DNA of 62,697 bases from Haplosporangium gracile. Lineage: Eukaryota > Mortierellomycota > Mortierellomycetes > Mortierellales > Mortierellaceae. The position numbers and the translations under genes were made by a program. The stretch lies in the NCBI GenBank assembly GCA_015499985.1, contig JAAAUF010000122.1:1-62697 (forward strand), written 5' to 3'. Position 1 is the first letter of the stretch. Each line of letters starts with the position of its first letter. Below are positions 718 to 49,181 of this stretch, piece after piece. Under the pieces are notes generated by a model. The model searched no databases. It was given only the letters and a program-made list of their open reading frames with translations, and was not told the DNA's origin.

Positions 718-3700
718 ATGATCTATCGTCCCACTACCGATAGGGAGGATACGACTGCCTGATCACAGGCCGTGGCGTGAGCAACCCCTCGGGACTATTG
801 TCCGGACGACACATCTGGTTCTGATCACGCTCGGTCTGGGCCTCCTGATCTCTGTCTCAAACCTGGTTGCTGTCGTGGTCTTGCTGATCAAGCAGGAGGG
901 TAAGTTTTTTGCATGAACACAGTACGACAACACATGGACGTCGGAGGCTGAAAAATAAGAACGGAAGGACAAAAAAAAAGGAAGTCTATAAAAGAAATGC
1001 TCATTTAAGATCCTATGACGCACATCCGTGCCCTCTCTCCCCAGTCAATCATCCTACTTTTCCTTCCGCTTCCAGCAATCCATATGGGGCCAAAAAAAGT
1101 ATTAAAAGATTCTTTTTGAATATCTAAAGACGCACGATGGAGTTTTAATCCTCTCTGCCCTTATGGCTACGGCCTTCTCTCTCTTTTTTCCTCCGTGCTG
1201 TGTCGCCCCTTAGGTAATCTATCTTTCCAATCGCGCGGACTGGGCTGGACCCTTTCCTCTGCCATCTGTTGTTGTCTAGCATGGGCCGGACAGACTTGGC
1301 TGGGATTTCAGGAACGCAACCGCCCTCGATTCTCAACTCCTCTGCGCCTCTTCTGGATTTGTTCGCTCATCCTCTCAACTGTTTCCTTTTCACTCTGGAT
1401 TCGTCACCGGTCAGAAACGGACCTTTACCTCGGCAAACCATTCGTTACCCTCAATCGCATCACCACCATCGCACGATTCGTTCAGAGTATCGGACTTGTC
1501 CTCTTGGGGCTCGCTCAGGAAACCCAGTTGCGAGCTTCACGGCCCCTGGACCTAACTCAGGATCGCGCACTATCCTCACAATCAAGTCGCGCCACGCTGG
1601 TTCAGGACAGCTTAGTTGGAGCAAGTGCAGCAACCTCCAGCAAGAAGGGCAAGAAGAAAAAATCTGGAACAGGACCAGGAGGGGCACAGTCAGCCTCAGC
1701 ACAAAAAGACTACAAGAGACCCACAACTTTCAAGGAGTTTTACGGGCACTGCACGCGCCTCCGTCCATACATCTGGCCATCCAACTCACGCAAGCTGCAG
1801 ATCCACATTCTCCTTTGTCTGGCTCTGCTGGTAATCGGACGCGTTGTCAACGTGCTTGTGCCCCAGCAGCTCGCAAAAGTCGTCAATGCGCTGAGACAGG
1901 TTTCAGACGGAGCCACAGACCAGAATGGAAACCCTCGATTCATCTGGATGGAGATCATGATTTTTATCGGCTTGAGGGCGCTTCAGGGCAGCATTGGCGC
2001 CGTTGATACGCTCCAGGGTTTGCTCTGGATTCCTGTGGGTCAGTTCAACACTCGAGAGCTGGCCGTCAAGATGTTTGAGCATCTCTTGAATCTTTCCTTG
2101 AGGTTCCATCTCAACCGCAAGACTGGAGAAATGCTTCGTGTCCAAGGTAACAGATCACTCCTTTGGCTTTAGTTTTTTACATGTCCCCTCTCAGTTTACT
2201 AACACTTGACTTCTTTCCTTTGGTAGATCGCGGTGTATCGTCGATTGTCACATTGCTCTCCTCGCTGCTCTTCAACATATTGCCTTGCCTAGTTGATATC
2301 GCAGTCGCATGCATCTTTTTGACACGAGCTTTCGACATTTACTTCGGAATCATTGTCTTTATTACAATGATGTGCTACATCTACGCGACCATTCTCATGA
2401 CGGACTGGAGGACACGGTATCGTCGCGAGTCCAATGCACTCGACAATGCAGTAGAAGCGCGAGCAGTCGACTCTTTGCTCAACTACGAAACCATCAAGCT
2501 GTTCGCCACTGAGGAATACGAGGTTGGGAAATACACTGATGCCATCCATGCCTATCAGAAGGCTGACCAAAAATCGCAGTACACCCTCGGTATTCTCAAC
2601 ACTACCCTGAACGTCGTTATCCAAGGAGGCCTGGCTCTGGGTTGTCTGCTTTGCGCTAAGCGAATCGCGCAAAAGGAGATGGAGGTGGATGACTTTGTGA
2701 TGTACTACGCCTACATCACCCAGCTCTACGGCCCACTCAATCTCTTTGGAACATCGTATCGATCTCTCCAGGTAAACATATATGAAATCGCACCTTTTGT
2801 TGCTGCTGTTATGCGCGAACGAGACCTAGTCATGTGCTGATCTGTTGGATGTTCTACTACATTGGGCATCTGACCTTCATAGAAAAACTTTATCGACATG
2901 GAAAAGATGCTTGATCTCTTCCAGGAGCCTGTCGAGATTCAGGATCTCCCCGAGGCAAAATCGCTTACGATGACAGGCGGCGAAGTCGTCTTTGGTAAAA
3001 GTTTGGTCATTTTATCACCGCTTTGATACTCGACTATTTTCGCCATAATTAACACGCCGTTTCCACTTAACAACATATAGAGAATGTGTCGTTCGGCTAT
3101 AACCCACAGAATCCAAACCTCAAATCTGTGTCCTTCAAGATCCCGCATGGCAAAAAGTTGGCACTCGTTGGACCATCTGGAGGTGGCAAGTCTACGATTC
3201 TCCGTCTATTGTTCCGATTTTATGACCCGACACAAGGCAGGATCTTGATTGATGGACAGGATATCCGGATGGTGACCCAATCCAGTCTGCGGCGAAAGAT
3301 CGGTATCGTGCCTCAGGACACCGCTCTTTTCAACGAGTCGATCGGATACAACATTGGGTATGGAAAAATCGGACAGGATCAGGCGCAGGTATTCGATCCT
3401 TCACGGTCGGCAATGCAAAGGCGACGCATCCAGTCTGGCGAGAGTTCCGGTGCCGAGTCAAGTCGTCGTGTGTTGTTGAGCGGCAAGCCCACCAAGCCAG
3501 CTGGTCGCGGACGAAAGAGCAAAAATGCATCGCCTCAATCCTCACCCGAGACTGCTGGCATTACCGAGGGCGACGAGGATGCAGATGTGGAGGGCGACGG
3601 AGGAGACTATGAAGATGATGAGGATTGGGAGGACGATGGTCGTATCCAGGCGGCCGCAGAGGCAGCACAGATCCACGAGATCATCTCGCGTTTCCCAGAA

Positions 3701-4573
3701 GCGTACGCAACGCGAGTCGGGGAGAGAGGCATGCGACTTTCAGGCGGGGAAAAGCAGCGCGTGGCCATTGCTCGGACGATCCTCAAGAACCCACCTATTC
3801 TTCTACTGGATGAGGCGACCAGTGCTTTAGATACACAGACGGAGCGGGATATTCAAAACTCGATCGAATCGATCTCTAAGGACAGGACTACGCTGATGAT
3901 TGCACATCGACTGTCGACGATTGTGGATGCGGACGAAATTCTGGTGATCCAGAAGGGAGAGATTGCAGAACAAGGCAGCCATGAGGAACTCATGCAGGCA
4001 GGAGGAATCTATGCTGCCATGTGGATGCAACAGCTTCGGGAGGATCGGACGCCGGCCGGAAGTAGCCATTCGAGTCAGAAGGATTCGTCCAAGGGCGAGG
4101 AGGAATCGGACGAGGACGATTCATCAGACGACGATGACAATGCTCGAGTTGGCAAGATCCGTATCCGCAGGAGCCACCACAACAACAGCAGCCGTTACCC
4201 GCGTGGAAGTGGAACTGGGACCGGGCGCTATGGAGATAATCGAGCGGTGATGTCATTCTCGCTTCCAGCGTATGGATCCAACTTTGGGTCAGGAACAGGG
4301 TCCAGCTCGGGTTCGAGTAGTGGCGGTGTTGGACCTTCGTCTTCATCAAGGCGAGGGTTCATGCAGGGAAGGCTTGACTGGCCAAGCATCAATACGACTA
4401 TGCAGCGGCCCAACCAACTGACGGTTCTTCCAGAGTCGGATAGTATCCAGGAGGTCTCTGACGAAAACAGCTATCACGATGATGCTATCGACGACCACTT
4501 GTCTGATTCAGGAGAGACCTCATCCAGGATACCAGCAAGAACATCCAAATGCACAGACAGTGATCTTTTCTAA
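718..4573 (+). CDS. HMT1/ABCB6-type ABC half-transporter, 5' end unresolved
   Basis: ABC half-transporter of the HMT1/ABCB6 class (family role: export of heme, porphyrin or thiol-metal conjugates across vacuolar or mitochondrial membranes; substrate not deducible here). Exons by frame: up to 899, 1130-2146, 2227-2771, 2883-2994, 3081-4573, about 1,115 aa. An extra N-terminal hydrophobic region precedes the six-helix ABC membrane domain, as in HMT1. The NBD shows Walker [11 protein letters not shown]-loop IVPQDTALF, signature LSGGEKQR, Walker [13 protein letters not shown] and H-loop AHRLST. A roughly 100-residue insert rich in Ser, then Asp/Glu, separates the Q-loop from the signature, and the tail is acidic and Ser-rich. 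The start is uncertain: the coding frame is closed by TGA at 719-721 with no in-frame ATG after it. The ATG at 718 is in another frame, so an upstream exon (acceptor near 768) or an indel is needed. Confidence 0.85.
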
Positions 4574-21884: not shown

Positions 21885-24800
21885 ATGGGAGGCACGATAA
21901 TTTCATTACTAATAACCATAACAATACCTCGCCTACTTCTCCTCACATTCCTCCTTCTCTTCTCTCTACTCCATGCAATCAACGCGCAACAACCAACCGC
22001 AAGCACAGAGCAGGTACCCGCTCCACCGATGCCAACATATCCTCCTTCTATCGATCCAGGGTTCAGTAACTCAACGGAGGACTCGTACCAATGGCCCAAC
22101 TGCACAGATGCCAAAGGCAATCTCCGGATATCCCTTGTCACACACTGTAAGAGATTTTGCTGCTGCTCTCTCTTCCCTTCAATTTTTTACAGACGCGACT
22201 TTGGGCTCTCGAATCACCCCTTTCTCGGTCAAACAATTAACCATGCTGGATGTGCATGCACCTTTGAAAACATTCTTCTCCTACAATTACGCAGCCTCGG
22301 TTATCCTTTCAGCTGGCACAAAGCTGGACGCAAAAGCGATATTACCCCTCGCCGTATTCATCACAGACGTTCTCGCCGACACAGATTACAACCCTCAACG
22401 GATGAGCGATGCTATTTATAGTGCCATCAACGACTCCGTCGATGCTTTGATTGTCTCCATACCTGACTACGAGGCCCTACGGGAACCTATTCTCAAGGCT
22501 AAAGAGCATGGCATCCCTGTTATTGCAGTATACACTGGACTAGAAGCCGCAAAGGAGCTAGATATCCTTACCGTCATGTCGGACGAGGTACAACGACAAC
22601 AATTACTTTCACGAATGCACCTCTCGCACCTTTTTGCAAGTGCTCATGCTAACCATGGCTTCTTTTGTTTTCTTGCACATGTTTAGTTTGAAGGAGGAAA
22701 AGTTCTGGGTGGACAACTAATCCACCAGGGTGTCAGGGACTTTGTATGCATCGGCCCGAGTCTTAGAATACCAACAATGGCAGATCGTTGCGGCGGTGTT
22801 CTGCAGGCATTTCAAGACGCCGGGATTCATCTTTCGAGCAATGTTTCGACACGAATGCTTCACGTGAACAAGACACGCAACACGACTCTGGAAACACCTT
22901 TTCAGACCCTCAGGGATACTATTCTAGATATGGAGAGCGTGACGGGAATCGTGTACCTCACATCGCCAGACTTTGCCGAGACCAGTTTAAATCTGGCCTC
23001 AGCCTTGAATGGTACACGCGAGTTTGTGTATGCATCCTTTGATTTTAGTCCAGGAATGATGCCAGCTTTTGCTGCTGGTACACTTCATTACTCCGTTTCA
23101 AGTATGCTCTACTTGCAGACCCTCATTCCTATTATCTTACTCTATGTCCAGGTAAGACCTAAAAAACAACAGGCATACACGTAGAGCGTCAAGAATAGGA
23201 CACACCACTTATAATTGATTGTTCATTCTCGATTCATCACCTGTATAGCTCAACTTTGGTGAGATGGTGAACCAAGACAAGATCTTGACAGGCCCCAAGC
23301 TGGTCACCCCCCGCAATGCCAAGACCATGCTGATTCAGGAACAATGGACCGCCGCAACCTTCAAAGAATACGCCCTCAAATTCAGTGTCATGACTGGAAG
23401 GTAAACGCTCTCTTTTCAAAACAATCATAATCGCCGATTGCTTTATTGTGCTACAGAATTTAACGATTTTTTTCGCTTTACAATCGCATAGCTCGGCATC
23501 GGATGATCATTGGAACGCGCTTTCGACAGGAGCCAGAGATGCTGCAAAAGCCCTTGGATGGGCAATGACAGAGTACCGATATGGAAGTCCGATCCGGACC
23601 GAGGTTGTTAACTATAGCATCGACACGGCCTTGAACCACCCTAATACGCAGGGGTTGATTGTCAGTAATAGCCATTTCAGCAACGTCAACTACGCCGTCA
23701 TGAGGTCGCTCGACCAAGTGCCGTCTCGGACATCGTCCGCCAACAAAACAGAACAGCTCGGCTGCAACGACAGGAACAATAACAACAATATCAATACTCC
23801 GGGCATGGTTGACTGTAAGGCACTGATCCCATGGAACTACACCACCAACAAAGCCCTTCCGGTCCCTGTTGTCGGCATCGGTTTGCCTGTGACCAACCTC
23901 ACCGCATTCCAGCACCTGTCGTGGGTAGGCGAGACCGGATACATAGCAGGAAACGAGTATGCCGACGCGATCTTGGCGGACGGAGGCAGACGACCCATCT
24001 GCGTCGTATCCCTGGACGAGCCTGAGCAGCAGATGTTGATGTGCCATGGTTTGTATGACCGTATATTGGCGATTCTTGGCCCAAACAGCCTACCTGTCTT
24101 CGACACCTTTTGCGTTCGACTCGACATGACTGAGTTCCTGCAATCAGAGCAAAAGTTTTTCGAACTGTCTAAAGTGTACCCATACGACAGCCTTCACACC
24201 ACCTCGACAAATCTGTACGGATACGTCCGGAAATACAGCGCGGCGATCAACAACGTCTCGATCACGACTACAGGACGATCGACTTATGCTCTCTCTGATT
24301 TTGTGGAGGGCAAGGTCTCCAACCTGTGGTCCCAGCAGTCTTACCTCAATGGATTCATATCCGTCTTCCAGCTTGCCCTTTCGACAGTAGTTCAGGATAG
24401 CACCTGGAACTTTATCGAGACCGGGCCGGCGCGCGTTAACTACGTCTGCGCTAAGGGACAGATGTTTTCGTTGGGAAGCGATTCTCCCTCGCTCTTTTGT
24501 CGTCTGCCAAATGGAGCACATGTGGGCCAACCTTACTGCCATCCTTGTCCCGTCCAATATTTCAGTGGTTCCTACAACAGTAAAAACTGTACAGCCTGCC
24601 CGGACGGCACCTTCACCAACCAAACGGGATCGACCTTTTGCTGGAGCTGCGATGATGAGGGCCAATCGGCACCTGCTTGCCAGAAGTACTTCTTGTCGAA
24701 ACAACAACAGCAACAAGGTCACGACCACACGCTGGCGGTGTTCTTGCCAATTGGTCTGGTCATTTTTGCTATCGCTACGACCGCCATCTTCATGTACTGC

Positions 24801-27800
24801 TTTCAGAAGCGCGATAAGAACAGGAAAATTCTTGACGACTCGTGGCAGCTCTCGTATAGCAAGCTCATGGGCCAGGAACCGGATCCCATCCAGGATGACG
24901 ACGACGACTCTTATGGCAACGTCAGAGACAGTGGCAACACGGAGTCTAACATGGAAAAGGGACTTTTCCCTATTATCAAGAAGAACCCGTCGTGTGGAGC
25001 GCGTCCTACCAGTCGATTTCACCGAAGTCACTCAACATTCACCGTCGGTATGTCTGGCATCCGACCAATGGATGCCGCTGGGAATGCGATCGGCGTCTAT
25101 CGCAACCTGCCCGTTCTTATTCGCCGCATTGGAGGATCCAAGGTCAACCTGACGCGGAAGCTGAGGATCGAGATCATGGATGTGATGGAACTGCGGCACC
25201 CAAAGTTGGTTGAGTTGGTCGGTGTCTGTCTTCAACCCCCCAACATTTGCATAGTCTACGAACACTGCTCCAAGGGGACGCTGACCGAGGTTTTGGCCAA
25301 TCCTGACCTGAAATTCAACTGGCTCTTTAAGCTGTCGTTCATGAGTGACATTTCACGTGGCATGGAGTTTCTCCAGAACTCCAAGATTCAGTGCCACGGA
25401 GACCTACGATCGTCGAATTGTCTGATCACGAGCCGATGGGAGGTCAAGGTCGGAGGATATGGTCTTTCGGAGCTCATGGAGACTCAGCGAACGGGATACG
25501 GACGATTAACACCCACTGTTAGCACACCTACCGTTACAGGGACCGCAGTACAAGGAAAGAATGGCGCTGCAGCGGTTGACGGTGCGGGAGGACAGAGAAA
25601 CTCCGTCATGCGGGCTAGTACCGACAGTCGCGCTTTGAGTATCGGATCTGTCGTGTCACCACGCCCTGTTTCTATGATTGAAGAGGATGACAACGAAAAA
25701 GATGGATCCCCTTACTTGATTGCGAGCACTGAAGCCGAGATCCAGGCCAGCTTATGGGTCGCTCCCGAGAATATGATCCACAGAGGTCGCGTCTATCATA
25801 AAGTTGCCACCAAGTCTGGTGATGTCTTCAGTGCCGGTATTGTCTTCAACGAGATTATGACACGGACCTCACCCTACGCGAGCCAGCTCCAGGACATGGA
25901 CCCGGTCGATGGTCCCTTGCAGCTTTTGGATCTCATCAAGTACGACGGTCTGAGACCTGATCCTTTTGTTGACGACGAAAGGGATGAGGGTATCGCGTGC
26001 TTGAACAATTTGATCCGCAATTGTCTTCAGTCCGAGCCTCTGATGCGGCCCTCATTCGCCAACATCCAACATCGACTGCGACTCATCAGCCCGGACGGCG
26101 ACATGATTGGAGGCATGGCGGCTTTGCTCGAAAAGTATGCGAATGATATGGAGGAGTTGGTCAGGACAAGGACGATGCATTTGCAGACACGGACGGTTGA
26201 GCTGGAGGAGGAACGCCTTCGCACGGACGCGCTTTTGATCGATCTCAAACAGTCCAAGAACCAAGCTGAGGCAGCTGCAACTGCAAAGTCTAACTTTTTG
26301 GCCAACATGTCGCACGAGATCAGGTAATTCTTCTGTTTTGCATGTTCATTTTTTATTAGTTGATCATCATTTATGGATTCATTCTAATCACGCGACCTTT
26401 GTGTTTCCATTCGCCATTTGGAATAGAACGCCTATGAACGCTGTTATCGGAATGTCAAGGATCCTGCTCGAGTCGGATCTCTCCCCAGACCTGATGGATT
26501 GCGCCGAGACGATCGAGTCGAGTGGTAACCAGTTGATGGCCGTCATTGACGACATTCTCGATTTCAGCAAGATCGAGTCTGGCAACCTCAAGTTAGCGCC
26601 CGAGAAATTGGACCTCCCGCGTCTGTTGGAATCCGTATGCAACCTGGTCCTGATGCAGGCTGCCACCAAGGGGCTGGGCCTTACTTTTGTCATCCACCCT
26701 GATACACCTATTGAGATCCTGGGTGACTTGGTCCGTATCCGCCAGATCCTTTTGAATTTGTTGAGCAACGCGATCAAGTTTACGGAAAAGGGGAATATTG
26801 TTGTGAAGCTTGAGCCCAAGCCCAGGATGTCGAGGTCGTTCCACAAGGCACATTATGAGACAGATACTTCCGAGGAATCTTCATCGTCGCCGGAGCAAGC
26901 AGCAGTACCAGGAATTCATGAGTCGTCGCGACTGTTACCCAATGTCGAGTACGCTTCTAATTCCAGTCTTGGTCTAGCGGATTCCAGAGCGCGATCGAGG
27001 TGTGGTTCTGGGAGCGATACAGGGTACAGCACGTCGTCATCGGCACCAGCACCAGCGCCAGCACCAGGGGCAGAGAATTGGAATTCGAGTCGTAATCAGG
27101 ACAGTCTTGGCGACAACCATTCATCGTCGTCCTTGTCGTCGGACGAAAACCAAGTCGATCTGCTGTGGTCAGTGGCCGATCAAGGAGTGGGTATTCCTGC
27201 GCAGCGGATGCACAAGCTGTTCAAGTCGTTCAGTCAGGCCGACGACTCTGTTACCAGGAACTTTGGTGGTACTGGTCTTGGACTAGCTATCTCTAAGAAA
27301 TTGGTTGAGCTCATGGATGGTGAAATGGTAAGTATTTTTTTTTCTTTTTTTGTTAGTTGCATTCATGGCTATAGAGCAATGCAAGGGTCTAACTCAACCA
27401 TGGGGGGGTTTTTTTTACTCTATGCATTTTTTAAGTGGGCGGAATCTGAGGAGGGAGTTGGATCGACATTCTACTTCACGACCCTTCTTAGTTCTCCAAA
27501 GTCCAGTCAGACAGTGTCGCAGCAGCTGAACCTGGCCTTCTTCAAGGACAGGACTCTGTTGATTATTGACGACCGTAAAGTCACCAGAACCTCGTGGACC
27601 CATCAGTCATCTGCCTGGGGGTTCCAAAAAACCCTTGTGTTCAGTATCCAGAAGGGTCTTGATTACTTGAAGCAGCATCGTAATGAAGTCGATGTGATCT
27701 TGATCGATGTTGATCGGCCGCAGGCTAAGGTCAACCCTGGTCTGGCGATCCTCCAGCAGATCCGTAATATGCCCGCTCAGGGACAGGAGAATAACACCAG

Positions 27801-29409
27801 TGCTGAAGGATCGGTAGGTCTCTCGCCTCCTATTCCTCAACCAGCGGCGTCGCCATCATCATCGCCTGAGAAGCCCATCCCCTGTGTCTTGGTCTCATAC
27901 CATCGCCGCAACCACTCCGATCTCAGCCTTTATTCCATCTCGGTGCCCTCCAAGATCGTCACTCGTGATTGCTCCTCGCCCGTCGGCCCGATCTCGCCCA
28001 TATCCATGGGGTCCAACCCCCTTCCGGGCGGAGAAGGAGGGCCTGTAAGGGAGAGGAAGCCTTCCAAGGGTTCTGGGTCAAGCGACAACCTCCTTTCCGC
28101 GACAGAGTCTCCAGATTCTTTTGGCACTCATTCTCATTCACATACAGGATGCATGCCCAACACTATGAACAGCGGGATGCTGGTCACCAAGCCATGGAGC
28201 TTTCGCAAAGACCGGTCCTCGTGCTTCAATACGAGCCCTACCATTGGCAGCGGTGGTAGTGGCAACAGCAAAGGCGACACTGGTGGCACCGGCACTTTCC
28301 CGAAATGCAACTCCCCAACTTCCCCACATCACCCAATCCTGTCCGGTAGCCTTGCTGACCAACCGTCGTTTGATTCCCAGGAAGACTCCTCAGTCGGACA
28401 TCTCATCAAACCGGTGAAGCAGTCCAAACTCCTCCCGATGCTCCATGGACTCATGACAGGTTCTTGGCCCCTGGCTTGTTCGGCCACGGCCGATAACGAT
28501 GTCCGTAGCGACCAGCGCAAGAAGCAGATGGAGACGTTGGAGTGCCTTTTGGTCGATGATAACCCCGTAAATCAGAAGGTCATTACCAAGATGTTGAGTC
28601 GGATTGGGATCGTGCCAGAGCTTGCTAGTAATGGTCTTGAAGCTGTTGAGAAGTGTCGTGCTCGTGCTGAAGCTGTCGCTGCGGCTACCGCTGAAGGAGA
28701 CGATGGGTCGAAGTCGATATCCACCGGTACTGCCAGAGGAGAGGCCAAAAAGAACAGCAGCAAGAAGGTCAAGCAGTACGACATAGTCTTTATGGACATC
28801 TGGATGCCTGTCATGAGCGGCCACGAAGCGACCAAGGAGATCCGAGCCTCCGTGCCCGGAGTCACCGCCGCCTCTCCCCTAATCGTCGCCATGACTGCCT
28901 GTGTCATGCCGGGAGACCAACAGAAATGTATCGACAGTGGGATGAACCGGTACCTGTCGAAACCCATCCGCAAGGAAGAACTCTCCAAGACTCTTGAGGA
29001 TTGGTTGGATGAACGTGCGAAAATCGAGGAGGAATTGAAGCTTTCGAATCAACGAAAGTTGATTCAGAAGAAGAAGCGGGAGATTTTGCAGAAGCGTAGT
29101 TATTTGGCGGTTTTGACGAGTGGTGTTGAGTTTGGGCAGGTGGAGGCGGGGTTGGCTTCGGCGACGGTCGTTAATGCTGATGATGATGAGGATGATGACG
29201 AGGAGGTTGAGGACGATAGCGATGGCGGTCTGTTGGGACAAAGTGACGGAGGGCTGGAGGGTGTGCGCGAGGAGGACCTAGTCGACTCGAATGACGGAGA
29301 AGTCTTCCCCGGTGGGCATTCCAACAATGCCGATATCCAGCTTTCGCTTGAGAACAACCGTATCGCCGCCGCACGACAAAAGAGACGACAGCAGATTCGA
29401 TTTGAGTAG
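21885..29409 (+). CDS. Receptor hybrid histidine kinase: PBP1-PBP1-TM-KHD-HisKA-HATPase-REC
   Basis: Predicted plasma-membrane receptor, 2,326 aa. Exons: 21885-22146, 22193-22587, 22687-23151, 23249-23400, 23492-26323, 26427-27327, 27436-29409; phases close. Order: signal peptide (1-34); two periplasmic-binding-like lobed domains (about 85-400 and 415-720; first with GIPVIAVYTG, second with VPVVGIGLPV); Cys-rich GCC2/GCC3-like stalk (about 773-815); TM helix (about 838-863); kinase-homology domain (about 955-1280); coiled signalling helix (1290-1350); HisKA with phospho-His H1366 in NMSHEIRTPMN; HATPase with N1483, DQGVGIP at 1620 and GGTGLGLAIS near 1649; degenerate receiver; true receiver with D2123 in VFMDIWMPVMSG. 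The KHD lacks the VAVK lysine (VLIRR) and the DFG aspartate (GGYGL), but keeps HGDLRSSN, the receptor-guanylyl-cyclase pattern. Low-complexity inserts split the HATPase and first receiver. It presumably senses a small ligand outside and feeds a phosphorelay. Confidence 0.9.
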
Positions 29410-29710
29410 CGACCCGATGCTGATGAGTGACTCTGAGGGCGTCCTTGGTTGCTGTGATGGTGGTGGAGGCGGTCTCAAGGTGATCAGTGTGGGCGAGGAT
29501 GAGGTCCGGGCAGCTACGCGAGAGCGAAAGCAGCGTGGATCGAGGAGTCGTGGAGGATCGGTGTCGATCCAGGACCCCATCACTGGAGACATTGTTCTTG
29601 TCCAAAGTAATCGGTCCTTCGGCAGAGACGACTATGATGATGACTCTGAGGAAGAGGACGACGCGGATGATCATAGTGGTGATGACACCGGTGAGGTGGA
29701 CGCGCAATAG
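29377..29710 (+). other. Coding-like acidic extension in +1 frame after the receptor stop
   Basis: Directly after and overlapping the receptor stop codon, the next frame stays open to TAG at 29710. It encodes protein-like sequence with no low-complexity bias until its end: SDSEGVLG, SIQDPITGDIVLVQ, then an Asp/Glu-rich tail. The upstream receptor frame also turns acidic before it stops. A single-base indel near 29340-29380, an undetected small intron or a real stop with an untranslated remnant would all explain it. No suitable GT-AG intron of plausible length was found. Confidence 0.4.
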
Positions 29711-30002: not shown

Positions 30003-32105
30003 TTAAGCGGCCTTGGGCTTTGGTGGCTCGACACCAACACCTACAATACTGTCGCCCGACCGAATATTATTCAGGGCCTGGATCACGGGTACAGAGGGAC
30101 ATCCTGCGGGGGCAAAGTGGACAATGAAATCTCCCTGCTCGTAGAAGGATGGGAAGGTATTCATTATATGAACGTCCCTGTCAAAGAGGTACACCTATTC
30201 AATTAAAATTGACGCGCAATACATAATATATTAATATATAATAACCCCCCACCAGAAATGAAATATATACGTACAAAAGACAAAAAAAGAACTTACTCCA
30301 GAGGTCCAGAGAGGGTCCTGCATGACCTCCCAGATAGCGCCCTGCTCATAACTAGGTCGCTTATTATACCAAGTCTTGCGTCGCTGGACTTCATTCAAGA
30401 ACTTCCGACTCCAGTCCGTGTTCTTGATCAACATGACTCCCGCATTCAACATCACATCCCTCAACGGCCGGGCAACAATAATGCTAACCTCATTCTGCTT
30501 GTTCTCATTCAGCTCCTCCGCTTTTCGGATAATCTCCCTCACATCCTTGTCCAGATTCGCAACAATTGCATCCATATCCATCCATAGTAACCACTCGTAA
30601 TGCGGAAGTGTCTTCTGGATGGCCCCAATCTTGCCCCAGACCCGTTGGCGGTGTCGGAATTCCTCCTGGGCAAACTCGGCGGCGCGGGCAACGAAGTAGT
30701 AGCCGTGTTTTTCGGCATAGATGCGCTTGTTGTCGGTCGAAGGCAGGGCGGCTTCGGCCATACACATGTCGGCGTAGATGTAGGACGATGTCAGGACGGC
30801 AATATTCTTGTTCCGGTTCGGGTCGACTGCACATGGCGAGATGGGTTGTACAGCGATTCTCTGAGCAAGTGGGATCCAGTCCTCGAGCTGATGGACCAAT
30901 CCAACAACTGCAGCTGTTGTTGGGACTTGATCGATATCCCCTTGCCAGAGGGGCGACTCTCCCTGAACAACCTTGATAGTCTCGACAATCTGACTGTTAT
31001 AGTAAATAGTCGCAGCAGTGATTAAGTCCATAAACGTCCGGTTCTCCTCGATAATAGCCCGGTTCTTCAAGAGCTGTGTTGCGGCGGGGAAGGAGATCAG
31101 GGCTGCAAAGGGGTTGGTGGAGGTCTCGCCCCAGGTCATGAGTAATCCTGCTGTTCCTGCGGTGGTCTGTTTGGAAAGGGTCTCCAGCTTCTGAACATTA
31201 ACGAGTGAGGTCGAGTCAAAGAGGATGACCTTGTCCACCTTTATCTTTTCCTGAGGCACAAACGTGTTCACCTAATTGTTATGCAAAAAAAAGGGGGGGC
31301 GAAGATAAGGTGGAAAACCAAATTAGCGTACCATTCTGATCTGCCCCATGAGCAGTTGTCATAACAAAAATATTGCATTTTCGCTAAACCCTCACCAGTC
31401 TTCAACTATTCCAACAAAACTAGCCAACAAAAACGAAAATGTCAAGGAACAACTTACGGCCCAGTTCAAAGCATCGCCCCAGACGGCATGCCGGTTTTTA
31501 ACCGTCCGGTTCGTGAAATGCCAATCATCAAACTCCATAAACTCTCCATGAAGAGTCCGAACCTGGGCCTGCATATACTGTGCAGTATGAATCCCCTGTT
31601 TGAGCCAGGTTGACTGTCCATAGATATAAAACTTGTAGATGATATTGCCATCGTATCGGGCACAGGGTTCGAGGTTGTTTTTGATTCCAAAGAGTGTCTC
31701 GCGGACCCAGACACGATTCTGAAGTTGGGTCCAGCTGGTGGGGATGATGATTAGGCTGTCGTAGTGATTGGAGGTGTTGGGGACTGTCAGGGGTTTGAAG
31801 GATGTTGTTGATGGATTATTGGAATTATTGTCTAGGACGGCGGGGTCGCGGGTGTAGGGCTTTTCGAGTACTGGGGGACCTGGTGGCGGTTCCTTGTGTA
31901 CGTCTCCTCCTCCTCCTCCTCCTCCTCCTCCTCCTCCTCCTGGTGGAGGTTTTTGTTGTTGTTGTTGTTGTGAGCGTCCGGGTGGGAACTTGTTGTCGCT
32001 GCCACTGCTGTCGCCGTCGTTGGTATAGTTGCTCCTGCGGTGTGAGAAGACCAAAAGCATGAAGAAGACCAGGCCAATGGCCCAGTAGGTTCTTCTGATG
32101 GGCAT
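30003..32105 (-). CDS. Golgi double glycosyltransferase: GT31-like + GT34 (GMA12/MNN10)
   Basis: Type II membrane glycosyltransferase, 604 aa. Exons: 32105-31458, 31271-30297, 30194-30003, all phase 0. Short N-tail, TM anchor (about 8-22), then a Gln, Pro and poly-Gly stem. Residues about 105-300 resemble a GT31 beta-glycosyltransferase in layout (IIIPTSWTQLQNRVWVRETLFG, GEFMEFDDWHFTNRTVKN), but the GT31 DDD position reads DST, so this half may be inactive. The C-half (about 370-600) is a GT34 alpha-galactosyl/mannosyl-transferase: KHGYYFVARAAEF, VWGKIGAIQ, and the metal-binding DMD at 448-450 in LLWMDMDAIVAN, followed by NAGVMLIKNTDWS and DFIVHFAPAGCP. Likely adds alpha-hexose to N-glycans or cell-wall mannan in the Golgi. 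The exact sugar is not deducible. Confidence 0.82.
31903..31940. repeat. (CTC)n / poly-Gly codon repeat in the glycosyltransferase stem
   Basis: An almost perfect CTC trinucleotide tract that, on the minus strand, codes for about twelve consecutive Gly between the TM anchor and the first catalytic domain. A (TTG)n poly-Gln tract follows at 31951-31970. It serves as a flexible spacer and is prone to length change. Confidence 0.85.
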
Positions 32106-39780: not shown

Positions 39781-42600
39781 ATGCTTCGCGTGCTCTTCTC
39801 TAAATCCGCTGGTCGTGCCGTGCGCCAGGCAGGAGGTAAATAATAAGACCAACGCGCCTCATCGCACCTTCACCGGAGTCAACTTGCCAGGAGAAACACT
39901 GTTCTTGTCACACAACTCCTGATCCGCAACTCGGTCAAAAAAAACTTTCGGATCAGCTGGACTTCTCGGATTCAAGGTCATGTTCGAAGCAGGATTAACA
40001 TGCGTCCAATCACTTCAGGACACAGCACCCTCACCAACGCAGTTGTGGCTACCTTGGATCCACAATATCAAAGATGGAAGGCATACTCTTGCTGTAAAAG
40101 ACAGGAACACCAACAACAATGGAGAGGTCTAGCTCATTAAAGCAACTATTGATCATGCTCGGATATATAGCTTCTCGTCACTTCCGTACTTCAGCTGTCG
40201 CCAGGAATGAGGTCGAGGTCTTTGTTGACGGCAAGTCCGTCAAGGTTGAGGCTGGCTCCGCTGTTATTCAAGCTTGCGAGAAGGCCGATGTCCATATCCC
40301 CCGTTTCTGCTACCACGAACGCCTCTCGGTTGCAGGAAACTGCAGAATGTGTCTGGTCGAGGTCGAAAAGTCACCCAAGCCTGTTGCCTCGTGTGCTTTT
40401 CCCGTCATGCCCGGAATGAAGATCAAGACCGACACTACTTTGGTTAAGAAGGCTCGTGAGGGTGTCATGGAGTTCCTGTTGGCAAACCACCCACTGGACT
40501 GCCCTATTTGCGATCAAGGAGGAGAGTGCGATCTTCAGGACCAGTCTGTCCGGTATGGATCTGACCGCGGTCGTTTCTCGGAGGTTGTTGGTAAGCGTGC
40601 TGTCGAGGATAAGGAGCTCGGACCTTTGATCAAGACCACCATGACTCGTTGCATTCACTGCACTCGCTGTGTGCGTTTCGCCAACGAGGTTGCTGGGTTC
40701 CAGGATCTTGGAACCTCTGGACGCGGCAATGACATGCAGATCGGAACATACATCGAAAAGACCATGAACTCTGAGGTAACGTAGCCGATATAAGGCGACA
40801 CATCGTTCACTTTGTTCAGGCAAGGAGCTTGCTTGTATGGCATTATTTGCTAACCAATTGTCTCCTCGCTTCTAATTGACTTATTTCAACATATGTGGCG
40901 CATTACAACCATTGACATGGATATTTTGACGATAATTATTCACCTTCACCTCGGATAACAGATGTCAGGAAACTTGGCAGATGTCTGCCCTGTTGGAGCT
41001 CTTCTCTCCAAACCCTACACCTTTAACGCCCGTCCTTGGGAGCTGAAGAACACCGAGTCGGTCGATGTTCTTGATGCTCTTGGATCCAACATTCGCGTCG
41101 ACTCCCGTGGCGTCGAAGTCATGCGCATTCTCCCCCGTCTCAACGAGGACATCAACGAGGAGTGGATTTCCGACAGGACTCGCTCTGCATACGATGGTCT
41201 TAAGACCCAACGTCTTACTACTCCCATGATCCGCAAGGGTGATACCTTTGTTAACGTCAACTGGGCTGATGCCCTCCAAAAGGTTGCCTCTGAGATGAAG
41301 GCGGCTGGTCCCGGCATCAAGGCCATTGCTGGTCAATTGGCCGACGCCGAATCTCTCGTTTCCCTCAAGGATCTTGTCAACACTCTTGGATCAGAAAATG
41401 TCACTGTGGATAACCGTCGCCAGGATACCCCCGCTCACGGCACTGACTTCCGCTCCAACTACTTGCTGAACTCGACCATTGCCGGCATTGAACAGGCCGA
41501 CGCCCTCCTTTTGATCGGTACCAACCCTCGTCACGAGGCCTCCGTCATGAACGCTCGTATCCGCAAGGCTTTCGTCTACAACAGCCTCAACATCGGACTC
41601 GTTGGTGCCCCCGTCGACTTGACCTACGACTATGAGTACATTGGTGCTGATACAGCTTCGCTCGAGACTCTTGTCTCTGGCGAGCACGCCTTCTCGGCCC
41701 AGCTCGCTGAGGCCAAGAACCCCATGATCATTATTGGAAGCGGTGTCAACGATTTGCCTGACAGCGAATACGTCTTTTCGTCGGTGTCCAAGATTGTCAA
41801 CAAGCACAAGGACAAGTTTTTTCAGGAGAACTGGAACGGCTACAACGTACTCCAGCGCGTAAGTACCGGCTTCATTAAACACGGTTTAATTAATACGATT
41901 TACGTCGATGATGTCTTTTTTCACTAATTATTTCATGTACTTTTATTTTTGTACGGTATGGGACCTTTAGGCTGCCAGCAGAGCCGCTGCTTATGATATC
42001 GGTTTTGTCCCCCAGGTCAAGGAGATGGGAAAGACCTCGTTTGTTTACTTGCTCGAGGCCGACGAGATCTCTGCCTCTGATATTCCCAAGGATGCGTTTG
42101 TTGTCTACCAGGGCCACCACGGAGATGTTGGAGCCCAGTATGCGGATGTGATCTTGCCTGGAGCCACTTACACGGAAAAGAGCGCGACATATGTAAATAC
42201 CGAGGGTCGTCCCCAGCAGACACGCGCTGCTGTGCCACCACCTGGCGCTGCTCGTGAGGACTGGAAGATTATTCGTGCCATTTCAGAAGTTGCAGGAGCC
42301 ACTTTGCCATACGACGATGTTCATCAGGTCCGGGATCGTCTCCGTGATATTGCCCCCTCATTCGCCCACTATAATGTTATTGAGCCTAGCTCGGTGGCAG
42401 TAGCATCATTGGGTCTCTCAACATTGAACAAGTCGGGAGCCAAGTCGAGCAAGTCGGTGCTCACCCCTGTTATTTCAGATTACTACATGACGGATTCAAT
42501 CACCCGTGCATCGTCGACGATGGCCAAGTGTTCGGTAGCATTCTCGAAGGGCGCCCACCGCCCTGACGAATCCGAGTTTAAGATCGAGGCACATGCTTGA
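39781..42600 (+). CDS. NDUFS1/nuo-78: NADH:ubiquinone oxidoreductase 75/78-kDa subunit
   Basis: Iron-sulfur subunit of the complex I peripheral arm in the mitochondrial matrix, carrying electrons from the 51-kDa flavoprotein side toward quinone. Exons: 39781-39835, 40171-40775, 40962-41858, 41971-42600 (728 aa; human NDUFS1 is 727). The N-terminus ([16 protein letters not shown]) is a good matrix presequence. A 2Fe-2S ferredoxin domain follows ([20 protein letters not shown], then C in VASCAF), then the His/Cys 4Fe-4S ligand set ([18 protein letters not shown]) and a second cluster ([18 protein letters not shown]). The rest is the molybdopterin-oxidoreductase-like fold with [13 protein letters not shown]. 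The presequence is split from the mature domain by a 335-base intron. Rules out Saccharomycetaceae, which lack complex I. Confidence 0.97.
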
Positions 42601-43235: not shown

Positions 43236-46200
43236 ATGTCCCAGTACACAGCCATGGCCAATCACACCGACACCGAAATGCGGCCGTCGGAGCAGGAGCT
43301 TATCGACGAAGAGTTCAAGGGGGTCAAGATCGACTCCTGTCCAGAAAAAGCGCCACCTCAACCACCACCTCAACCATCACCAACAACAACGAGAGTTAAA
43401 CGAGTCTCGACGCCAAAAAAGAAGCCCTTTATCCTGGGAGGCCGTTTCTTCCTGCTCAACTGGTTCTACCTCTGGATCTTTGAGCTGATCCACCGCTGTC
43501 GCGAACAAACGAATATCAAAAAGATCCTCCTCAAGTTGGCGAATGTGCTCACAGCCAAGACGAACGGAGAGGATCTGGATGTCAAGTGGTCGCAGGAGAA
43601 GGCCAGTGCTGCAGCTGCTTCTCGGTAAGGGACTTGCATTTAGAAATGGATTTCAAATGGAAGCAGCAACATGACGTACAAACTTTTTTCCTCCTGCACT
43701 TTGTTTACATGGTACGTTACACACAACCATACACACCCCCTTCTTTTCTTTTCCAACTCAACTGTGTGTAGGCAACCCAAGCTTATCAAGGCGCTATACA
43801 AGCTTTACGGCACAAAGTACATCCTCATCGGAGTATGGAAGCTTATCTGGGCTGCGTGCACCTGGGCAGGCGCGTACTACTTTCTTCGTGTCTCCATCGA
43901 GTTTTTGGAAAAGGCCATGCCGACAAGGACAGGTCACCTCTACGCAATGGGGCTGCTGTTAACGTCTCTTGGAAGCTCGATCGCCATCCATCAATTGTAC
44001 GGTCAGTGCACCGCTCTCGGCATCCAGGTAAGCATGCAACAAACGATTTGGTTTTTTTTCTCACGATCCGATGTTGATATGTCTGCAATTTGCACACACG
44101 GACAGGCGGACAGACAAAATATCCAAGAGGAGTTCCAAGCATACATTTTACATTAACTAAAGCAATGAATTTATTCTTGTCCGCATTGTCGATTTGAAAC
44201 CTCCTTCGTTTTTTTAATGCCCCATCTACCCTGCACCCTCCACTCAGGTCAAGGCTTCGATCTCCGTCCTGATCTACCGCAAAGCCCTCGTCCTGGCCCG
44301 CATCCGTGGTGGCGCCGGAGAAATTATCAACATTATATCGACCGATGTCGCACGCATCGTTGACGCGGTCACCAATTTTCATTTCTTGTGGTCAGCTATG
44401 GTCGAGACCATTCTCATCCTGGCACTGGCCTTCCCAACAGTCGGATGGGCTGCAGCCCTGACAGCCGTCATTCTTGTCCTGGTGGTCCTTCCTGTCCAAA
44501 TCTATCTTGGTCGACTTACTTCCAACATCCAGATCGAACAGACTGCAGTGACGACGGAGCGTGTCCACTTAATGAGTGAGATCTTGACCGCCATTAAGCT
44601 CATCAAGTTCTATGCCTGGGAGGCACCCTTTCAGGAGCAAGTCAACCAGGTTCGCGCCAGGGAGTTGGCGCTTTTCAAGAAGAACTTACAGGTTAAAGCA
44701 ATCAATATGGCTGTCGTCTTTGCGCTTCCCGTCATTGTCGCCGTCTCGTCTCTTGCTGTGTACAACAGCAAACGCTCAGGACCAATCGACAGCAGTGTTG
44801 TTTTCACTGCCCTCAGTATCTTTAACACACTCCGATACCCCTTCCTGATGCTGCCTATTGCCGTCAAGAGTACCTCTGGTAAGAATCTCTCCTCCTTTGC
44901 AATCGTTTCTTTCAATGAAATAGGATCGTTTTAATCAGTATATTGCAATTTTACTGTGTACTGTTTGCCACATAGGTGCCAGACTGGCACTGCGTCGATT
45001 AGACGACTTTTTGACACAGCCTGAAGTGGAGCCTCTGGAGGAGTACTCGGTCTCAGAGGGAGGAGACACTGCAATTGAGCTGGTCGATGGAGAATTCACT
45101 TGGGACGGCGATGATAACGGACCAGCCCTGCAGGGTGTCAACCTCAAGGTCAAGCGAGGAGAGGTCGTCGCTATCGTAGGAGACGTTGGTTCAGGAAAGA
45201 GTTCGTTCGTCGCAGCGCTTCTCGGGCAAATTCGCCAAACAGGCTCAGGACCTAAGCTGAAGTTGTACGGTAAATCTTCGTATGTCCCACAGGAAGCTTG
45301 GTTGAACAACTTGACCCTTCGCGAGAACATTGTCTTTGGAAAGGATTTCGAGGAGGAGCGATATAACATCACTGTCAAGGTCTGTGCTCTCGAGCGCGAT
45401 CTGACTCTTTTGGCTCATGGAGATCAAACTGAAATCGCTGAGCGAGGAACCAACCTGTAAGTTACTCTTTCGAGCGATATGACCATTGCTACAAGTGTAT
45501 CCTTCGTTCTTCACAATAGAAACTAACGGAGGTCTACGTTGTATTGCCCTAATATAGGTCTGGTGGTCAGAAGCAGCGCGTCTCGTTGGCAAGAGCTGTG
45601 TATCACAAGTCTGACATCGTGCTCATGGATGATCCCCTCTCCGCTGTGGACCAAAACGTCGGCAAACATATTTTTGACCAGTGTATCCGTGGTTACCTGG
45701 CCGGTCGCACAGTCATCATTGTGACCCATCAGCTGCAGTACCTTCACCGTTGCGACAAGATTGTCATGCTCCAGTCTGGAAAGATCGCATACCAGGGCAC
45801 ATACCAGGAACTCATGGCCAACGAGCCCACCTTCAATACCTTGATCAACACACATGTCTCGAGCGAGGACGCCGATGGGGATGACGATGGTCTTGGTCAT
45901 GACGTGGGCGCAGAGGACGATGGGGAGGCTGAAGAACCCGAGCTTACATTGGAGGAGCAGCTCAATGCGAACGAGAACAGCAACCAAGTCACCGCTTCAG
46001 GACCTAGTGCGTTGGCCAATATCATGCGTAAGAGCCTGGGTGCCGGACCTCGACGACACACCTTGCCTCCCGGAACCAAGGTTGGTGATGCTCCTGGAAC
46101 CGCTACTATTGTCAACCAAAACTACGTCACGATCACACCACAGGAACGTCTTCGCCTCTTGCAACGTCATCTTCCTCACATCAGCAAGAACAGTATCCTC

Positions 46201-49181
46201 GCCAGCACACTCGAGGAACACGTCAACATCAACTTTATTAATCGTGCTGGAGAAGGAGGAGGGTATTACTCACCCATGAGCACCGATTTCAGTCGTGCGA
46301 TCTACCGCAACGAGTTAACCATCTACTCTATCCCCGAGGGCGACATCTACGGACATCGGACTGCCAAGGACCGAAAGCGCAAGCAGATGCAGCAGCACCG
46401 TAAGTCTGTCTCTGGAGCGTCCCTTCGTCGCCATGCCACCCGGGCCAGTAAGAATGACAGCTTTGACTACAGAGATGGCGAGGGTAACAATTTCCACCAC
46501 CACCAGCATACCGCTTTGCCAGAGGGAGCGATCGAAGTAGAAGAGGATTCGGATAGCGACTCGGACGATGATGAGGAGAACCCTACAGCGTTGGTTGGAG
46601 AGGACAAGAGTATGGACGAGCTTGGATTCGCAGACTATGTCAAGTACTTCCGGGCGGGTTCTGGAATCCTGGTAACTCTGCTGTTGATCGCGCTGTTCTT
46701 TGTTGCTCACGGTATTCGTATCGGATCAGATTATTGGTTGCGTCTATGGGTCCCCAACACACTCAACACAAAAGATCAGACTTATTTGGGTGTCTATGGT
46801 GCCTTCATTGCTGCCTTTGCCATTGCGGTGCTTTTGAGAGGTCTCTGGTTTGCCCACGAGGCCACTCTAAAGTCCAAGGAACTCCACGATCGTGCCTTTA
46901 AGGTATGCGCAAATCACAAGTCTGCTAATGTTAGTATGGTTCGCAGTGATCAAAAGCATAATGTACTGACTACATCCTCTTCCTGGAAATAGTCGGTAAT
47001 GCGTGCGCCAATGTCATTCTTTGAGACAACATCTCTTGGACGCATTCTTTCTGCGTTCTCAAAGTGTATGTTCACCGTCGATGACACGCTTCCAGATGCC
47101 GCCCTCTTGTTCTTGCAGTACTTCCCTCTGGCTCTTGGTGCTTTCATGCTGATTGCCTGTGTGGTTCACTGGCAGAACGCTGTCACTGTTGTTGTCCTCT
47201 TACTCATCGCCCTCCTGATCATCTGGTACGGAAGTCCAGCAGACACTAAGCTCAAGCAACTTGAAGGTAACAAATCCCTAACCCTGGCGGTTGAAAATCG
47301 AATCGTCATGATAGCATACTTAAACGAGCGCCACCAATTTATTAATTCGGTCTTTCTTTCAATTGTTTAGCTTTGAGCAAACCCCCTGTCTTCCAGCACA
47401 TTACCACGACTCTCGAGGGTCTCTTCTCGATCCGCGCTTACAATGTCCAAAAGAGATTCGATGGCATGAACATGGACGTCCTCGATAAGAACCACGAGAG
47501 TCTCTATGCCATGATGACCAGTAAGTCTTGTTTCACCCAACCGTTGTATTCGATAAACTTTTTCTTATCCACCAACACATTCGCGTCCTATTTGCATGAT
47601 ATAGCCAAGACATGGACCGCGTTCTACCTCGACATCATCTCATCGTTCATGGTCTATAGTACCGCACTCTTCTTGGTCATCCACAGGAACTCTATCCACC
47701 AGGCTCCTTCAGTCGCTGGTCTGGCTCTCTCGAACGCTCTTCAGATGCTGGTCTTCCTCCAGTGGACTGTTCGCCAGATGGGTGATGTCCAGGCTCAAAT
47801 CTCCACTGTCGGTCAGCTGGACTATTACGGTCGCAAGATCGAGCCCGAGGCCCCCGCAGAGAATCCAGCCACGAAACCCGACGCCTCTTGGCCCCAGGAA
47901 GGTCGCATCGATTTCGACCACCTGGTTCTGAGCTACCGCAAGAATACCCCACCCGTCCTCAAGGATGTGTCCTTCACTATCAACCCCAAGGAGAAAATTG
48001 GAATCGTGGGACGAACGGGATCTGGCAAATCGACGCTGTTGGTCGGTCTGTTGCGTATTGTCGAGGCCACTGGTGGTGCGATTTTGGTCGACGGTATCGA
48101 CATTTCCAAGATTGGACTCAAGAACCTCCGTACCAAAGTCGGTATTATCCCTCAAGAGCCCGTTTTGTTTGTGGGAACCATTCGAACCAATTTGGATCCC
48201 TTCGGGCAGTATGAGGATAATGCGATCTGGAGAGCCCTGGATGCGGTTCACTTGGGCGACAAGGTCAAGGAGATGCCACTGAAGTTGGACTCACCCGTCA
48301 TCGAGCACGGCAAGAATTTTTCCCTGGGCCAGCGACAGCTCATCTGTATTGCTCGCTCGCTTGTCATTGGGTCCAAGATCATTGTGTTGGATGAGGCAAC
48401 GGCTTCGATTGATATGGTGACGGACCGGTTGTTGCAGGAGACGATCAAGAAAAGTTTTGCGGATTGTACCGTCTTGACGATTGCCCATCGGTTGAACACG
48501 ATCATCGAGTCGGACAAGGTCCTGGTCATGGATGGAGGAGTTGTTGCCGAGTTTGGAGAGCCCCATAAGTTGTTGCAGGATCCTAATGGTATATTTGCTG
48601 AGCTGGTGAGCCATGCTGGTGAGGCTGCGGCCAAGAAGCTGGCCATGATTGCGGAGGATGCCCACAAGGACCGCAATAATGGACTAGATTTGGTTATAGA
48701 GGAGACTGAGAATGAGGAACTATCGCCAGGAGCCACAGTCCAAATCGAGCCATACTCCTTCCCACCATCCGTCTCTGTAGCGGCAGGAGTATCACCATCA
48801 GCAGCTGCCGCCGCCGAGACCCCAGCGACGTTGCAAGTGCCTGGCGGAAGACTTACCGACTGCCCTGCAAAGGCCGAGACCGAGGGACTTGCCAAAGCTA
48901 AGGCGCATTTGCGCCAACTAAGCTCGACCAGTTCAACTAACACGGGCATGATTTCTAAGCCAACGCCATCTAACAATGGAGAAGCGGAGGGCTCGACTTC
49001 ATCAAAATCGCAGTCCAAGGGCGAGGCTGCAATCGAAAAGCAATTCCAAAGGTTGTTCCGGAACCCTGCGACGGGAGTAAATGCGCCCGATGGTAGCCCC
49101 GAGTTGAAGCCCCCGACCCCAACGACGACGGCGGCGCCATTTATGGAACTGACTAATGATATCAATCTCCCACGACCATAA
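43236..49181 (+). CDS. ABCC/MRP-type multidrug/conjugate ABC transporter
   Basis: Full-size transporter of the ABCC (MRP/YOR1-like) family without TMD0, 1,700 aa. Exons: 43236-43624, 43772-44027, 44248-44878, 44976-45456, 45558-46902, 46993-47266, 47371-47520, 47605-49181. Layout: cytosolic N-tail, TMD1, NBD1, long linker, TMD2, NBD2, long C-tail. NBD1: Walker A GDVGSGKSS, signature LSGGQKQR and Walker B VLMDDPLSAVD, where Asp replaces the catalytic Glu, as usual in ABCC. NBD2: GRTGSGKST, FSLGQRQL and VLDEATASID with an intact Glu. The linker (about 240 residues, acidic, with a His-rich patch) and the roughly 190-residue Pro/Ser/Thr-rich C-tail exceed the usual length. Expected cargo: organic anions or glutathione conjugates, at plasma membrane or vacuole. 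The 84-base intron 47521-47604 is in frame and stop-free. Confidence 0.93.

Follow-up and report, generated by a model that had tools for sequence, protein, structure and literature searches.

Can the intracellular transmission machinery of the animal receptor guanylyl cyclases (RGCs) be coupled to an output other than a cyclase? The question is raised by a receptor gene of the fungus Haplosporangium gracile (Mortierellales), which lies in a stretch of 62,697 nucleotides of contig JAAAUF010000122.1, called the window here. Our reading, to which we give a probability of about 0.7, is that the gene encodes a single-pass hybrid histidine kinase receptor in which an RGC transmission cassette (pseudokinase plus signalling helix) is joined to a His-Asp output.

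The predicted protein comprises a signal peptide, two periplasmic binding protein (PBP) domains, a Cys-rich stretch, one transmembrane (TM) helix, a kinase-homology domain (KHD), a long helix, HisKA, HATPase, a degenerate receiver and an intact receiver, in that order. Pfam matches follow in the succession Peripla_BP_4, Ephrin_rec_like, PK_Tyr_Ser-Thr, HisKA, HATPase_c and Response_reg. The features are as follows (P0239 is the deposited protein of this gene):

21885..21986, + strand: signal peptide (hydropathy; comparison with P0239)
22366..23133, + strand: first PBP domain (Peripla_BP_4), spanning an intron (Pfam 4.8e-18)
23399..24452, + strand: second PBP domain, spanning an intron
24447..24680, + strand: Cys-rich stretch (Cys positions; Ephrin_rec_like at 24525-24638, Pfam 3.6e-05, barely past the cut-off)
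24732..24800, + strand: TM helix (hydropathy peak 2.44)
25092..26096, + strand: KHD, a putative pseudokinase (Pfam, profile, tree and structure), with a low-confidence insert at about 25503-25727
26106..26300, + strand: signalling helix, RGC-type YANDMEELV and a fixed-length coil into HisKA
26283..26583, + strand: HisKA (Pfam 5.9e-20), phospho-acceptor His at 26313-26315, intron directly after NMSHEIR
26725..27483, + strand: HATPase_c (Pfam 4.4e-24; motifs), N box at 26755-26784, G1 and G2 boxes, long low-complexity insert
27526..27978, + strand: degenerate receiver-like stretch, DD and an acceptor-like Asp, no clear Lys (by eye)
28528..28995, + strand: intact receiver, DD, Asp at 28795-28797, Lys in SKPIR (Pfam 2.6e-23)

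Besides the signal peptide there is a single strong hydropathy peak, pointing to a single membrane span; two lesser ones belong to the first PBP domain (residue 355, 1.68) and to the receiver (residue 2142, 1.73). Response_reg matched three stretches at a lax threshold only and one at 0.001. HisKA with its His, HATPase_c and a receiver with the D-D-K set are fused in one chain, the combination by which hybrid histidine kinases are defined (PMC5285503; PMC4965123; papers given by PMC number are cited from partial texts). A preliminary description of the locus, made from the sequence alone, had proposed the order ectodomain, TM, KHD and helix, then HisKA, HATPase and receiver. Pfam and hydropathy agree with it, the passage from helix to HisKA lying within one exon, and the motifs VLIRR, VGGYG, HGDLRSSNC, LLEKYANDMEELV and EEERLRTDALL, as well as H1366 and D2123, lie where that description placed them in its own numbering (past about residue 88, the corrected-model number is its residue number minus 34).

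In the PDB, the best kinase matches of the window KHD and helix were NPR1 (4.4e-39) and GC-C (1.9e-24), with CTR1 (9.9e-17) following, and a Mucor relative gave NPR1 (2.6e-38), GC-C (5.4e-20) and then the pseudokinase MLKL (3.8e-14). A 23-sequence family profile, which contains the histidine kinase part so that histidine kinases score too, matched NPR1 at 1.8e-67, GC-C at 2.7e-40 and the next protein kinase at 5.9e-27. In the reciprocal search of the H. gracile genome, the NPR1 KHD recovered the window gene (3.2e-29) and its paralogue C410 (8.2e-29), followed by the next other kinase at 4.1e-15. Foldseek with the KHD model placed GC-A at ranks 1-5.

Trees of the kinase part, with the helix left out and the RGCs represented by six vertebrate NPR1s and one GC-C fragment, give the same picture. 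In the first, 21 fungal KHDs and the seven RGC rows split from 18 rows of other kinases (including five duplicates) with support of 99/99; in the second, from which duplicates and three long rows were removed and to which ABL1 and BRAF were added, fungal KHDs and RGCs split from 12 other kinases (100/99). Approximately unbiased (AU) tests, for which the groups were chosen after the tree was seen, reject a union of RGCs with ABL1 (p 0.0006) and one of fungal KHDs with kinases of their own genome (p 0.003). Profiles, reciprocal search, trees, AU tests and Foldseek thus concur with the RGC-like character first proposed for this domain, and structure comparison places it inside the protein-kinase fold, the opposite of the refuting outcome named in the preliminary description. 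By these comparisons the KHD lies nearer to the KHDs of RGCs than to the other kinases tested.

The second shared element is the helix. Directly after the kinase part, the fungal LLEKYANDMEELV aligns with NPR1 RMEQYANNLEELV; the resemblance to the RGC linker between KHD and cyclase noted earlier therefore holds, the YAN motif adjoining the KHD in both. The distance from LVxxRT to ANMSHE is 42 residues, or six heptads, in 111 of 114 pattern-matching rows (three of which are the window gene itself), 56 in two and 59 in one. Counted by eye, the RT-to-ALL spacing is 21 residues in the fungus vs 14 in NPR1, one extra heptad. Structure prediction gives a single helix of 65 residues (model residues 343-407; model confidence, pLDDT, mostly 75-92, with a dip to 60 at the start). 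The helix of P0007 has 14 extra residues, equal to two heptads; that of P0165 has 17, which does not divide into heptads and could stem from a gene-model error.

The window KHD has Arg for the VAVK Lys, Gly for the HRD Arg and Gly for the DFG Asp, and it retains the HRD Asp and the downstream Asn. We surveyed these positions in 112 fungal KHDs (one being the deposited copy of the window gene) and six NPR1s. Gly replaces the HRD Arg in 108 of the 112 and in all six NPR1s, and the same counts hold for Tyr in place of the DFG Phe. The DFG Asp is kept in 6/6 NPR1s vs 21 of the fungal KHDs (it is lost in 91, with Gly in 79); at the VAVK position 51 have Lys and 57 Arg; 49 keep the HRD Asp, where the NPR1s have Asn or Ser; and 81 retain the downstream Asn. 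By these residues the window KHD is a predicted pseudokinase, with a DFG Asp more decayed than in NPR1. The loss of VAVK Lys and DFG Asp claimed for this locus is accordingly borne out in the window and does not extend to the whole family.

The ectodomain departs from the RGC pattern. Ectodomains of animal RGCs are PBP type I folds, usually, though not universally, of the ANF_receptor type. In the window protein ANF_receptor had no Pfam match even at E 1, Peripla_BP_4 matching instead. In support of the first PBP domain, a family profile matched the CUT2 sugar-binding protein 4ru1 (2e-36), NPR1 was left unmatched by the ectodomain part of the profile, and chains of XylFII and XylFII-LytS were among the fold matches of the second PBP. 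The ectodomain is thus a predicted tandem of sugar-type PBP domains, unlike ANF-receptor, and the RGC-like ectodomain of the preliminary description is not upheld.

Several observations weigh against an RGC-type cassette. The intron-split paralogue C815 was found by the NPR1 KHD in pieces only (best 1.8e-14), three other kinases scoring higher. The outgroup branches are long and the RGC sample narrow, and the tree software warns of long branches meeting. VIA-align did not rank GC-A above other kinases, RAF, RIPK and BTK being equal or higher. Loss of catalysis is not uniform across the family, since 21 of 112 KHDs keep the DFG Asp and 51 the VAVK Lys, and the ectodomain structure model is of only fair quality. 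Searches of a large protein collection with fungal queries gave no animal RGC among the matches listed, and the best 120 of 5299 hits of an NPR1 KHD search were vertebrate NPR1s, with no fungal protein; because such searches pick candidates by shared exact words, we count these absences neither for nor against.

As to origin, we tentatively suggest that an output-agnostic PBP-TM-pseudokinase-helix cassette predates the split of animals and fungi, so that the RGC kinase group would not be an animal invention; the cassette would have come to carry a cyclase in animals and a histidine kinase in Mucoromycota-type fungi, with the phase of the helix kept mostly in whole heptads. Horizontal transfer of the cassette from an animal, rather than common opisthokont descent, would concern its origin and not its function. 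It would suit the distribution of named family rows, confined among the matches listed to Mortierellomycetes and Mucorales, and the dating of kinase groups to an early eukaryotic ancestor, from which tyrosine kinases and RGCs are excepted (PMC6611643). We nevertheless think transfer unlikely: NPR1 and GC-C form a group separate from the fungal KHDs (support 96/91 and 98/94 in the two trees), and therefore the fungal KHDs are not nested among the animal RGCs sampled, which for this question are again six vertebrate NPR1s and one GC-C fragment.

It is improbable that the domain is an ordinary Ser/Thr or tyrosine kinase-like (TKL) kinase joined to a histidine kinase, like those of fungal hybrid histidine kinase group X, and that its likeness to RGCs comes only from both being fast-evolving pseudokinases. 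Such fusions have precedents, groups X and XVI being described with Ser/Thr kinase domains and TM regions as concentrated in groups including XVI (PMC8510515), and the long branches of both trees and the VIA-align scores of RAF, RIPK and BTK would be explained. Against this, two queries leave the next kinase some 20 orders of magnitude behind (for NPR1, at least 13 in the second), the reciprocal NPR1 search and the AU tests point to RGCs, and the common YAN-D/N helix right after the kinase part did not enter the trees.

That the KHD is an active kinase, phosphorylating the receptor or a partner, we regard as very improbable. The HRD Asp and downstream Asn of the window protein would suit activity, as would the family members that keep one or other catalytic residue in the survey above; the replacement of VAVK Lys, HRD Arg and DFG Asp in the window, and the family-wide loss of HRD Arg (108 of 112) and DFG Asp (91 of 112), argue for the pseudokinase.

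The gene structure bears on the joint between the two halves. The exons join without a frame break or an internal stop, and the introns are of the GT-AG type:

21885..29710, + strand: whole gene, corrected model (splice features; comparison with P0239)
21885-22146, 22295-22587, 22687-23151, 23249-23400, + strand: exons of the corrected model
23492-26323, 26427-27327, 27436-29359, 29385-29710, + strand: exons of the corrected model, continued

Exon 23492-26323 (944 codons) is unbroken over the second PBP, TM, KHD, helix and H-box up to NMSHEIR, and the joint between KHD and H-box is therefore independent of splicing guesses. The deposited protein BGZ47_001255 (P0239, 2336 aa) equals residues 49-2384 of the corrected model; it starts 48 codons late and so lacks the signal peptide (region 21885-22028), and it reaches 29710 by way of a 25-nt "intron" (29360-29384) that is doubtful. 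Intron 1 is 22147-22294, not 22147-22192, as backed by P0239 and its relatives P0003, P0012, P0217 and P0223. Because relatives share a similar Gly-rich tail, the gene probably extends to about 29710. The last exon joint, across the 25-nt gap, is that of the deposited model and is doubtful, a stop at 29409 being the alternative; the sequence near 29360 may hold a frameshift or an assembly error. Of the 2,326-aa, seven-exon model first proposed, the in-frame exons and GT-AG introns stand, whereas intron 1 was mis-spliced (about 34 spurious residues) and the end at 29409 is probably too early; these errors leave the main finding unaffected.

H. gracile has three copies of the gene (C207, C410 and C815). 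From listings of 28 and at least 120 proteins we took at least 122 rows as family, 121 with at least part of the KHD or helix and 112 spanning both; the genera of the named rows are ones that we assign to Mortierellomycetes and Mucorales. A KHD adjoining HisKA, proposed as a pattern to be sought across fungi, thus recurs in single predicted proteins of many species. Four rescanned representatives (including P0239) keep the order PBP, kinase, HisKA, HATPase and receiver, with Ephrin_rec_like in two of the four. The histidine kinase cores long enough for alignment fall into a single clade (100/100) that excludes seven bacterial rows and one other H. gracile kinase, in keeping with a single fusion. 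A second clade (L037, the C815 copy, with P0009, P0172 and P0182) has HGRLTSMNC in the KHD and YGNDMEELV in the helix; by histidine kinase core the C815 copy is nearer this clade and the C410 copy nearer the window type. A receptor pseudokinase gene and an adjacent histidine kinase gene misread as one can hardly be the explanation, even though the gene models are predictions and some rows (P0012, P0019, P0022 and P0249 among them), many of these labelled partial, lack HisKA or kinase, given the one open exon from TM to NMSHEIR, the 112 of 122 rows that span KHD and helix, the constant helix-to-H-box distance (111 of 114) and the full order in the four rescanned relatives.

Parts of this layout have been registered before. 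What defines an RGC is a guanylyl cyclase catalytic domain that follows the coiled coil (PMC1435932). The fungal receptor and animal RGCs (NPR1/GC-A, GC-C) have a PBP type I ectodomain fold in common, and in both a single TM is followed by an RGC-type pseudokinase and then by the YAN-D/N helix; the fungal receptor differs in having HisKA, HATPase and receiver in place of the cyclase and a tandem sugar-type PBP and Cys-rich ectodomain in place of ANF_receptor. Guanylate_cyc had no Pfam match in the window protein or the rescanned representatives, and PF00211, the cyclase domain, was found in none of the family rows listed. Database labels nevertheless read "RGC/RGC protein kinase" (P0159, P0230), "Receptor-type guanylate cyclase gcy-13" (P0009) and "guanylate cyclase" (P0159, P0165, P0249); no cyclase domain being listed, the guanylate cyclase labels misstate the output. 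The models of P0249 and P0012 seem to end before the histidine kinase.

Among hybrid histidine kinases, groups XVI and X likewise carry a Ser/Thr kinase domain ahead of the histidine kinase, XVI with TM regions; both XVI features are present in the window protein, and the family may be group XVI. The description of that group mentions no RGC-type KHD or PBP ectodomain in the partial text (PMC8510515). Unprecedented TM-bearing hybrid kinases have been reported from early-diverging fungi, Mortierella elongata being among the species surveyed (PMC5285503). SLN1-type (group VI) kinases are also transmembrane and hybrid with a C-terminal receiver, and SLN1 receiver structures were among the profile matches; the extracellular loop of SLN1 lies between two TM helices, unlike the window protein (PMC6944256). 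Bacterial PBP-linked histidine kinases resemble it in coupling a ligand sensor of PBP type I to a histidine kinase, and differ in that the window protein is eukaryotic with two tandem PBPs. Such bacterial systems include XylFII-LytS, LuxPQ and Bacteroides BT1754; they are not known to have a KHD, and XylFII and LuxP are separate proteins. SLN1 is not known to have a KHD or a PBP. In the literature searched we recognised no description of a fungal histidine kinase that carries an RGC-type KHD. The preliminary description had known of no fungal receptor of this exact layout; the evolutionary link to RGCs is unreported as far as searched, while the layout itself is partly registered in the database labels and in group XVI.

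We envisage that an extracellular small molecule, perhaps sugar-like to judge from PBP homology, would close one or both PBP domains of a dimer. The movement would pass through the Cys-rich stalk and TM helix to paired KHDs acting as a non-catalytic gate, as in RGCs, and the coiled coil, whose length is nearly fixed, may set the phase of the HisKA dimer. Autophosphorylation of the His would be followed by transfer to the Asp of the C-terminal receiver and on to a YPD1-like histidine phosphotransfer (Hpt) protein. All these parts are encoded, the genome holding an Hpt gene with HFLKGSSAALG, which we take to be the YPD1-like motif. A connection to the SLN1/HOG pathway, raised in the preliminary description, would be an inference going beyond these parts.

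Reading the neighbouring frames of the window by eye, we saw no connection to the receptor; they look like ABC transporter parts (3071-4570 and 44218-49178), a glycosyltransferase (30234-31271, - strand) and a complex I 75-kDa subunit (40098-41924). Elsewhere, the near-duplicate loci L038 and L039 (contigs C629 and C408) combine, by eye, leucine-rich repeats, a PP2C-like domain and a class III cyclase, presumably the fungal adenylyl cyclase layout.

RGC KHDs are dead kinases whose exact role is unsettled. An RGC-type dead kinase and helix placed on a different enzyme would offer an independent test of the view that they transmit a conformational signal, as against chemistry, and would extend the RGC pseudokinase beyond animals. 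Early-diverging fungi, Mucor included, would gain a surface receptor class for which sugar-type ligands are candidates.

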